Shown here piece after piece: positions 5,248 to 35,497 of a DNA stretch of 36,369 nucleotides. The stretch is from Bacteroidales bacterium. GTDB taxonomy: Bacteria; Bacteroidota; Bacteroidia; Bacteroidales; UBA932. The notes under the pieces are model-generated. The model made no database searches, was not told the origin of the DNA, and saw only the letters and a program-made list of their open reading frames with translations. The stretch's first letter is position 1; each line of letters begins with the position of its first letter. The stretch spans positions 1 through 36,369 of the forward strand of contig JAFURF010000029.1 in assembly GCA_017471965.1 (NCBI GenBank), given 5' to 3'. A program made the position numbers and the translations under genes.

Positions 5248-5280
5248 AAGAGACTGACAGTCATTTACTGCCAGTCTCTT
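5248..5280. terminator. Two-way terminator between susD and groEL
   Basis: AAGAGACTGACAG (5248-5260) pairs with CTGCCAGTCTCTT (5268-5280) across a 7-nt loop, with one A/C mismatch. It lies between converging genes. The A-rich 5' flank (TAAAAGAAAG) becomes a U-containing tract on the minus strand, and the plus strand continues with CTTGTCTGTTT. Confidence 0.75.
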
Positions 5281-8531: not shown

Positions 8532-8544
8532 CAAATAATTATGG

Positions 8545-8552
8545 TAACTTTG
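8545..8552 (+). promoter_or_regulatory. -7 promoter box (TAACTTTG) of the DUF819 gene
   Basis: An exact TAnnTTTG match. The box ends 21 bases before the ATG at 8574 and overlaps the region just after another in-frame ATG at 8541, which argues that 8541 is not the start codon. Confidence 0.6.
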
Positions 8553-8573
8553 ACTGCACTAAAACCTTTATCA

Positions 8574-9740
8574 ATGAAAATATTCAATTGGATCATTCTG
8601 GTCTGCGGCTTCTGCCTCATTCCTGCAGGAGTCCTTGCCTTATGCAGACGTTACGCATGGCTCGGTAAAATAGGGCCCGTCCTCATCCTATATCTTATAG
8701 GTATCATCATAGGAAACGTCGGGCTGATGCCGGAACAACTGCCTGGCGTTCAGGACATTCTGTCAAACGCCATGGTACCTCTTGCCATTCCTCTGATGCT
8801 TTTCGGCTGCTCCTTCAACATGAAAGGAACGCGCTCGCAACTGCTCGCCTTGATAACGGGAATGGTTTCCGTGGTCATTGCAGTCATTGCCGGCTATCTC
8901 CTGTTCGGAAGTCACATATCGGACGCTCCTAAGATCGGAGGCATGCTTACGGGAGTATACACCGGAGGTACCATCAATCTCGCCGCCCTGAAGACAATGC
9001 TCGGAGTGGACGAGGAGACCTACCTCCTGATCAATTCATATGACATTCTTGTCAGTTTCCTTTACCTGAGTTTCCTTCTCACCATAGGAATCAGACTGTT
9101 CAGAAAATTCCTGCCGGTGGAAAGCGGACAGTTCACCAAAGAGGACGAGGCCACCATACAGAAGGAAATCGAAAAAGGCTCGGAAAATCCATACAAGGGT
9201 CTGTTCACCCGCAAGGGCATGGCTCAGGCAGGAAAACTTCTCGCGCTCACTGCCCTTATTGTGGGCGTATCTGCAGGAGTGGCACTGCTTCTGCCGGACG
9301 GTATGTTCATGACGGTATTCATCCTGTCCCTGACCACCTTGGGCATAGCATGCTCATTCATTAAGCGTGTACGTGAAATGAATTACAGTTACGACATAGG
9401 CATGTATTTCATATACATCTTCTGCATCGTGGTGGCTTCCATGGCAGACCTCAGCAAACTGGACTTCGCCGGAGGATTCTGGATGATGGGCTATCTCCTT
9501 GTGGCTGTTTTCGGTTCCCTTCTCCTTCAGATCATCTTTGCCAGGATATTCAGGATCGATTCGGACATGATGGTCATAGCGTCCGTGACATATATCAACT
9601 CGCCGCCGTTCGTTCCGATGATGGCGGCCGCCATGAAGAACAAGGATGTACTCATCCCCGGCCTTACAATAGGAGTGATCGGCTATGCCATAGGCAACTA
9701 CCTCGGCTTCCTGATATCTCAGTTACTGACTCTGCTATAA
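8574..9740 (+). CDS. DUF819-family multi-pass membrane protein
   Basis: This is an inner membrane protein of 388 residues with about ten to eleven hydrophobic segments; biochemical function is not established for the family. Glycine-rich membrane motifs typical of DUF819 are visible: IPLMLFGCSFNM, GGMLTGVYTGGTINLAAL around residues 125-140, and INSPPFVPMMAAAMKNKD near residue 345. One charged cytoplasmic loop (KEDEATIQKEIEKGSENPYKG) splits the two halves, suggesting an internal two-fold design like many transporters. The start at 8574 is chosen because the -7 promoter box lies at 8545-8552, downstream of the alternative ATG at 8541. It is probably monocistronic and ends at a strong terminator. 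A carrier role is an inference from topology only. Confidence 0.85.
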   Translation: MKIFNWIILVCGFCLIPAGVLALCRRYAWLGKIGPVLILYLIGIIIGNVGLMPEQLPGVQDILSNAMVPLAIPLMLFGCSFNMKGTRSQLLALITGMVSVVIAVIAGYLLFGSHISDAPKIGGMLTGVYTGGTINLAALKTMLGVDEETYLLINSYDILVSFLYLSFLLTIGIRLFRKFLPVESGQFTKEDEATIQKEIEKGSENPYKGLFTRKGMAQAGKLLALTALIVGVSAGVALLLPDGMFMTVFILSLTTLGIACSFIKRVREMNYSYDIGMYFIYIFCIVVASMADLSKLDFAGGFWMMGYLLVAVFGSLLLQIIFARIFRIDSDMMVIASVTYINSPPFVPMMAAAMKNKDVLIPGLTIGVIGYAIGNYLGFLISQLLTLL

Positions 9741-9845
9741 AAAATCCGACAGGCACTTTGCACCGGTGACCCCCGTCTCCCATTCGGGAGACACCCCCTT
9801 GCCGGGGGTGGCATGTCACCTATAGCAAAGTGCCTGTCTGATTTT
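9741..9845. terminator. Two-way terminator split by an inserted palindrome
   Basis: The outer arms, 9741-9761 (AAAATCCGACAGGCACTTTGC) and 9825-9845, pair over 21 bp with one mismatch. They are flanked by T-runs on both strands, as expected between the converging DUF819 gene and glyA. A separate palindromic element (9762-9820) occupies the loop, leaving TATA as the apparent original tetraloop. Confidence 0.85.
9762..9820. repeat. 59-nt palindromic element nested in the terminator loop
   Basis: A closing stem GGTGAC (9765-9770) / GTCACC (9815-9820) encloses two hairpins: GTCTCCC-ATTC-GGGAGAC (9775-9792) and CACCCCC-TTGCC-GGGGGTG (9792-9810). The result is a three-way cruciform that is markedly GC-rich beside its surroundings. 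It looks like a member of a short interspersed palindromic repeat family. Confidence 0.6.
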
Positions 9846-9854
9846 TATTTAATA

Positions 9855-11183
9855 TCAATATCTGTTGAGAGGCATTCCGTTGGTCTTCATGCGGACCTGC
9901 TTCCTTACTGCAGTAAGAACCTCCTCATAAGCCTCACGTCCTTCCTCAGTCTTGCCTGCGATAAGGTCGAGATTCGATGCCGCATTGGTAAGCACCTGAT
10001 CGATCAGGTTCACGATGAACTCCATATCCTTCTCGACGAAGCCTCGTGAAGTGATGGCAGGAGTACCGACACGGATACCTGAAGTCTGGAACGGTGTGCG
10101 CGAATCGAAAGGCACCATGTTCTTGTTGATGGTGATGTCTGCCTTACCGAGTTCCTTCTCCGCCACCTTTCCTGTCAGTTCCGGGAACTTGCTTCGGAGG
10201 TCGATGAGCATGAGATGGTTGTCCGTACCTCCGGAAACTATCTTATAGCCTCTTGAAGCAAACGCCTCCGCCATTGCCTGCGCATTTGAAGCAACCTGCT
10301 TCTGATATTCCTTGAACTCCGGCTGGAGGGCCTCATAGAATGAGACGGCCTTTGCCGCGATGCAGTGCTCGAGAGGGCCACCCTGAACGCCTGGGAAGAC
10401 GCTTGAGTTCAGTATCTGTGACATCTTCTTCACTACTCCCTTAGGAGTGGTAAGTCCCCACGGATTGTCGAAATCCTTGCCCATGAGGATGATGCCGCCA
10501 CGCGGACCACGAAGTGTCTTGTGGGTGGTCGAAGTCACGACATGTGCATATTTTACCGGATTGCTGAGAAGGCCTGCCGCAATGAGACCTGCAGTATGAG
10601 CCATATCTATCCAGAGTATCGCTCCCACCTTGTCGGCGATCTCACGCATTCTGGCGTAGTCCCACTCCCTTGAGTATGCTGATGCTCCTCCGATGATGAG
10701 TTTCGGCTTATACTCCAGAGCCCTCTGCTCCATCTGGTCATAGTCGATCATGCCCGTAGTCTCACTGAGACCGTACGCCACAGCATTATAAAGAATACCT
10801 GACATATTCACCGGAGAGCCGTGCGTCAGATGGCCGCCATGAGCAAGATCGAGACCCATGAATGTATCTCCTGGCTTGAGGCATGACATCATCACCGCCA
10901 TATTCGCCTGCGCTCCTGAGTGCGGCTGCACGTTGGCATATTCAGCCTCAAAGAGTTCACAGAGTCTGTCGATGGCCAGTTGTTCGATCTGGTCGACAAC
11001 TTCACATCCGCCATAGTACCTTGCTCCCGGATAGCCTTCCGCATATTTGTTGGTGCAGATGGAACCGAGCGCTTCTAGTACCTGCTCACTCACATAGTTT
11101 TCAGACGCGATCAGTTCGATTCCCGAAGTCTGACGGTCTTCCTCTTTTTTGATCAGATTGAAAATTTGGACATCCTGTTTCAT
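9855..11183 (-). CDS. glyA: Serine hydroxymethyltransferase
   Basis: This PLP enzyme converts serine and tetrahydrofolate to glycine and 5,10-methylene-THF, the main source of cellular one-carbon units, in the cytosol. It has 442 residues, slightly longer than the enterobacterial enzyme (about 417) but complete. Landmarks are [12 protein letters not shown] (21-32), [13 protein letters not shown] (47-59), the PLP-contacting [10 protein letters not shown] (191-200) and the lysine motif [14 protein letters not shown], with Lys222 forming the internal aldimine. The C-terminal [13 protein letters not shown] block is also present. It is transcribed alone, with an exact -7 box upstream and a strong two-way terminator downstream. 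Confidence 0.98.
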
Positions 11184-35463: not shown

Positions 35464-35497
35464 AGGGCGGTAAGACATTGGTTTGCCTTACCGCCCT
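35464..35497 (-). terminator. pnp transcription terminator
   Basis: AGGGCGGTAAG (35464-35474) pairs perfectly with CTTACCGCCCT (35487-35497) over 11 bp with a 12-nt loop. On the minus strand it is 25 bases beyond the pnp stop and is followed by TTTGTCACTTTTTTC, a good U tract. Confidence 0.85.

Follow-up and report, generated by a model that had tools for sequence, protein, structure and literature searches.

A dispersed nested palindrome of Bacteroidales with a fixed branched core and a free outer stem, a putative RAYT-mobilised element

Positions 9740–9846 of the window (the whole 36,369-nt stretch of DNA analysed here, from a Bacteroidales bacterium, contig JAFURF010000029.1) hold one copy of a small palindromic element of gut Bacteroidales that is dispersed in many copies. 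A conserved branched core is enclosed in most copies by an outer stem (P1) of about 20 bp, which is unique to a copy or common to few and is usually self-complementary. Such a free, locus-specific stem around a fixed core is a new feature, since it is as a rule the conservation of the stem that defines a palindromic repeat. We consider it probable that the unit of about 100 nt is a non-autonomous mobile palindrome, moved by a REP-associated HUH/tyrosine transposase (RAYT), with the pairing of its stem kept by template switching.

The two arms of P1 in the window copy are 22 nt long, 95% complementary with one mismatch, and separated by 63 nt; the stem encloses the branched core of 59 nt and a TATA linker (Table 1). 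The nesting reported in the initial annotation is real, and TATA is the loop left once positions 9762–9820 are deleted, but the stem, described there as perfect, has 22 bp with one mismatch. In the centre, P2 closes two hairpins (P3 and P4) and an unpaired GGCAT. The minimum free energy of the element is −65.9 kcal/mol versus −30.8 ± 3.3 kcal/mol for shuffled sequences (z −10.7; none of 200 shuffles as low), and the opposite strand folds with a z of −9.6 (0/200 shuffles). An Rfam scan of the window returned no family at gathering score, and with E raised to 5 two matches only, both far below gathering. The neighbours, identified by Pfam, form a convergent pair: DUF819 (8541–9740, + strand) and glyA/SHMT (9855–11183, − strand). 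By sequence, a T-run lies beside the stem on both strands, and the 3′ arm with its T-run may terminate the + strand and the 5′ arm with its A-run the − strand; among copies, a T- or A-rich stem base is seen in 8 of 96. Two short hairpins elsewhere in the window (5248–5280 and 35464–35497; 14-bp arms, 5–6-nt loops) look ordinary.

Table 1 Parts of the nested palindrome in the window, with their variation among copies.
Feature	Position	Sequence	Remarks
P1 outer stem, 5′ arm	9740..9761	AAAAATCCGACAGGCACTTTGC	Overlaps the DUF819 stop codon by one base, its last; same stem family in the own genome (G000) at C7:3494, C9:39807 and C83:59054 (without core)
5′ linker, P1–P2	9762..9764	ACC	Commonest linker among copies TCC (51/127)
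P2, 5′ strand	9765..9770	GGTGAC	GAC nearly invariant; first three base pairs covary among copies
Unpaired, conserved	9771..9774	CCCC	From copy alignment
Hairpin P3	9775..9792	GTCTCCC-ATTC-GGGAGAC	Length and sequence variable, covarying
Hairpin P4	9793..9809	ACCCCC-TTGCC-GGGGGT	Stem invariant in 26 aligned copies
Unpaired, conserved	9810..9814	GGCAT	From copy alignment
P2, 3′ strand	9815..9820	GTCACC	
3′ linker	9821..9824	TATA	Commonest among copies TCC (31/127) and TAC (18/127)
P1 outer stem, 3′ arm	9825..9846	GCAAAGTGCCTGTCTGATTTTT	

A small mobile palindrome had been proposed in the initial annotation, and the further copies sought in the source genome were found: the 105-nt unit, searched in the window's own genome (2.3 Mb, 64% complete, the window being its contig 69), has copies on many contigs. 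With one mismatch allowed in the core, 20 of 250 sampled genomes of the genus were positive, with 15 matches in the own genome, 21 in G063, 16 in G237 and 14 in G021; a backward-pattern control gave no match across the same 250 genomes. The exact core pattern was present in at least 113 stretches of public genome contigs, the titles of the 113 matches listed being all Bacteroidales, Bacteroidaceae or Bacteroidia, and had no match in viral contigs. Plasmids gave one match, at chance level (E 0.9). Mobility itself is inferred. From 16 own-genome and 113 public loci, 127 distinct copies (15 of them own) were parsed, identical copies being merged; nine matches (contig edge or no recognisable 5′ half), L007 (pattern misfit), L017 and L024 were left out. 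Variants with a much longer P3 region were seen in L142 (at ~1037 and ~5420) and in L024. In L004 (1461–1714), a copy near a contig end, the palindrome extends by over 60 bp in both directions, which may reflect a fold-back in the assembly.

Across copies, GAC/GTC of P2 is kept and the other three pairs vary, and a 3 × 3 internal loop lies between P2 and P1 in 45/127 copies by the fitting used. P1 has a median length of 20 bp among the 102 copies scoring at least 8; its sequence varies among copies and stays self-complementary, a score of 9 being reached by 113 of 127 copies versus 97 of 2517 mismatched arm pairs. In 26 copies, picked for stem scores of 8 or more and a 3 × 3 linker (a selection that favours pairing, not change), the covariation score was 0.664; shuffled pairings gave 0.166 (0/500) and slid registers no more than 0.13. 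Every one of the 14 pairs of P1 varies on both sides. Conserved terminal inverted repeats in all copies, by which MITEs are recognised, were not found, P1 varying by copy. A free stem around a fixed core separates possible recognition by a transposase from the upkeep of hairpin pairing.

Copies favour gene 3′ ends. Both neighbours were resolved by a simple ORF rule for 80 of the 127 copies, in 43 convergent, 37 co-directional and no divergent contexts; 31 of the 127 lie inside an open frame, some of these frames being spurious. Twenty of the 31 frames were translated and ten run against Pfam, with MurB/FAD-binding, PrmC, TruB, SufBD and radical SAM proteins among the results; in this Pfam set, the L082 copy lies at the N-terminus of a SufBD protein and the L091 copy in a ddl–prmC spacer, outside PrmC. 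The in-frame insert is read as a peptide of the type ..DPR..HPLAGGGMS.., and in-gene copies occur in both orientations. The MurB and PrmC copies lie in linkers that several relatives have in a short form. Empty MurB linkers have 10–13 residues (L202, L195, L198, L201); of 30 PrmC loci fetched, 10 have linkers of 13–16 residues and 11 others linkers of 26 residues. Different inserts occupy the linkers of both proteins in other relatives, the own-genome PrmC retains a 3′ remnant of the element (L212), and the MurB 5′ arms appear native by eye. At the MurB linker where relatives hold the core, the own genome (L181, on C34) has a large nested palindrome of another kind, whose long stem pairs imperfectly. 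In the MurB genes of two species (L189, L190), similar arms seem to flank another core that faces opposite ways in the two, as though it had flipped inside its stem (protein level, by eye); a further repeated coding insert, with the peptide CHSERS/CHFERS.., occurs in MurB and PrmC (L072, L135, L178, L226).

Filled and empty sites were compared between RGIG5188, a near sister, and the own genome. At the dUTPase–Mur ligase and the FNT-type transporter/DUF2147 junctions the element is present in RGIG5188, and the own genome has neither core nor stem, with the genes abutting; the polarity (gain versus loss) at both sites is read from the abutting genes. At the dUTPase site the 5′ arm takes in the end of the dUTPase gene, which the empty site also has; an inverted copy of that gene end lies in the 3′ insert (23 of 20000 decoys as good), and the outer stem there looks like an inverted copy of host sequence. 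Inverted host copies were tested on both sides of three sites, and the match was strong in this one of six comparisons; none was seen at FNT/DUF2147. No target-site duplication is evident at these two junctions. A third site, L048, has a 6-bp repeat and was first taken for a recent insertion that had duplicated 6 bp of its target; this reading was dropped, as relatives share the element there. The own spacer at L048 is 31–35 nt longer than the compact state, and the own genome has probably lost the element here, the repeat probably marking a deletion. L099 had no flanking match in the own genome. It is conceivable, though we hold it only tentatively, that the stem is self-built: the core would move with a short inner stem, and the polymerase would snap back and copy adjoining host DNA into the other arm. 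If true, every insertion would be wrapped in a long stem from its own target, coding sequence included. A neighbour's stop codon falls in an arm in 17 of 96 copies, which fits target-derived arms and is no proof of them.

The core had initially been seen as inserted in the loop of a pre-existing terminator. Such structure-guided insertion, with the core entering the loop of a terminator or other hairpin that was already in place and both arms of the outer stem being host DNA, is in our estimate improbable. It would agree with the long two-way hairpins, differing in sequence by species, that form the glyA terminators of several relatives, with the preference for gene 3′ ends, with the T-rich stem bases of 6 of 96 copies, few but above background, with an 8-bp hairpin seen by eye at the empty MurB site L202, and with a 12-nt palindrome (ATCAATATTGAT) at the insertion point of the empty FNT/DUF2147 site. 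Stem families, however, recur at loci judged non-orthologous. The window stem family (GACAGGCACTTTGC) accompanies the core at C7 and C9 and stands alone at C83 and, in degenerate form, at C38; the stem is therefore carried along. In 38 of 96 copies an inner 12-nt arm also occurs in another copy judged non-orthologous, versus a mean of 0.6 for shuffled arms, with a filter that may admit some true orthologues. The one bare stem seen, at C83 (L018), looks like a product of core deletion, because L094 of RGIG5188, orthologous by eye, keeps the core.

Spacing also speaks against insertion into a host hairpin. Of the 34 ddl–prmC rows, in which the own genome counts twice, 26 could be resolved; ddl was identified by Pfam. 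In 19 of the 26 the genes abut, the stop lying ~0–20 nt from the next start, and a terminator would not fit between them. Four rows have the core or a variant of it, and the spacers of the own genome and G024 are of intermediate length. In MurB, the two arms of a filled linker exceed the length of the empty linkers; in PrmC, the two 31-nt arms of L111 exceed the linkers of 13–16 residues, which would about fit other PrmC copies. At the empty dUTPase site the insertion point itself lacks a hairpin, the one seen there lying upstream in coding sequence, and the own genes abut at both empty junctions. Comparison of the glyA site itself was advised in the initial annotation: none of 29 other glyA 3′ ends (one locus per genome) has the core within 170 nt, and RGIG5188 shares it (L109, judged by eye).

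We regard as equally unlikely a functional structured RNA or 3′-UTR/terminator element, with a fold under selection, ordinary compensatory evolution and vertical inheritance. The strong covariation, the lack of divergent contexts among 80 copies and an apparent vertical inheritance with stem changes at ddl–prmC (by eye) would be expected of it; in-frame copies in both orientations within protein genes, the patchy presence in 20 of 250 genomes and the lack of an Rfam match would not. Template switching, moreover, has been inferred for RNA genes and is described as able to create and maintain perfect stems (PMC8794818), and compensatory-looking changes in such elements should not count as proof of a functional RNA.

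The Y1-transposase gene looked for elsewhere in the genome was also found: the own genome has three Y1_Tnp matches, two above cut-off, and three genes of one RAYT lineage. Y1_Tnp is present in 20/20 element genomes versus 161/230 others. Genes of the RAYT lineage were found at E ≤ 1e-20 in 15/20 element genomes versus 65/230 others (p 5e-5, without phylogeny correction) and at E ≤ 1e-80 in 15/20 versus 8/230 (a cut picked after the data were seen, again without phylogeny correction); the five element genomes without such a gene at E ≤ 1e-20 are among incomplete MAGs. In L092, and in the identical stretch L244 of G242, the core lies ~100 nt upstream of a RAYT-lineage gene, the only genome among 33 RAYT rows in which core and RAYT adjoin. 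The L092 protein has no Pfam or NCBIfam name; its relative in L031 matches Y1_Tnp just above cut-off and REP_Tyr_transpos well below cut-off, and HxH and Tyr are present in 32/32 aligned RAYT proteins. Stems of 14 bp or more are present no further than 350 nt away in 24/33 RAYT rows, as against 45/150 for control genes. By co-occurrence, and by adjacency in one genome, a RAYT is the likeliest mobiliser. Downstream of an own-genome RAYT gene (L031:320–413) there is a nested palindrome of like layout with a different core, which suggests that cores form several families, possibly a separate one for each RAYT lineage. Another own-genome RAYT-like gene (L030) lies between inverted repeats, as if in the loop of a giant hairpin (by eye).

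A passive palindrome, spread and kept paired by replication template switching and recombination only, would fit the stem upkeep, the stem end apparently copied from the dUTPase gene and the position of most RAYT rows of the lineage, which are not beside this core, but is hardly probable given a core conserved over many genomes and loci and its co-occurrence with one RAYT lineage, which point to a recognising enzyme.

The preferred reading is a RAYT-mobilised, or formerly mobilised, nested palindrome of which the core would be the recognised part. A HUH/Tyr transposase of the RAYT lineage may recognise the core as single-stranded DNA and move it with the stem, or with the inner stem; stem pairing would then be upheld through template switching at the hairpin, and the stem may sometimes be lengthened as flanking host sequence is copied in inverted orientation by the same process. 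In the window, the unit would have inserted between DUF819 and glyA, and its T/A-flanked stem could there also serve as the two-way terminator. Because filled, empty and scar sites can be compared at orthologous loci, birth and upkeep of a stem by template switching become testable from sequence.

In searches by topic of one open literature library, no listed title or abstract start describes the core. The closest precedent appears to be the 'atypical secondary structures' that are reported to flank TnpA-REP subclass 2.6 (= RAYT group 5) genes in Bacteroidetes and to have copies elsewhere in the genome (PMC6006769). These structures and the element share the Bacteroidetes host, non-canonical folded repeats near a Y1/HUH gene, and HxH + Tyr proteins; the former are given in words only in that source, and the outer stem of the element is variable and locus-specific. 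The HUH motif is NH[LIV]H in the table of PMC6006769 and THxH in 21/32 of the RAYTs aligned here. Long inverted repeats in coding sequence, with arms kept identical and template switching proposed, are described from nematomorph mitochondria (PMC6649704), where, unlike here, a dispersed family with a conserved core does not form part of the description. Rickettsia palindromic elements (RPE; 105–146 bp) resemble the element (about 100 nt) in being palindromic, of similar size, and intergenic or fused in frame in conserved protein genes (PMC2229807); by their description they are set apart by another host, whereas the stems of the present element differ among copies and a candidate transposase lineage is at hand. 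With this family, RPE-like protein-coding palindromes become available in a group that has a candidate transposase. REP/REPIN with their RAYT (PMC6006769, PMC3733652) are, like the element, short dispersed palindromes, and RAYT genes of the genus are, REP-like, more often flanked by inverted repeats than control genes, with several gaps of 70–90 nt. The element differs from REP/REPIN as these are described in being conserved inside and variable outside; a conserved GTAG/CGTC foot (GT[AG]G or CGTC) was not found in the invariant alignment columns, read by eye, and because this foot is absent the element is not filed as a canonical REP. We would call it a variant of the RAYT/REP kind.
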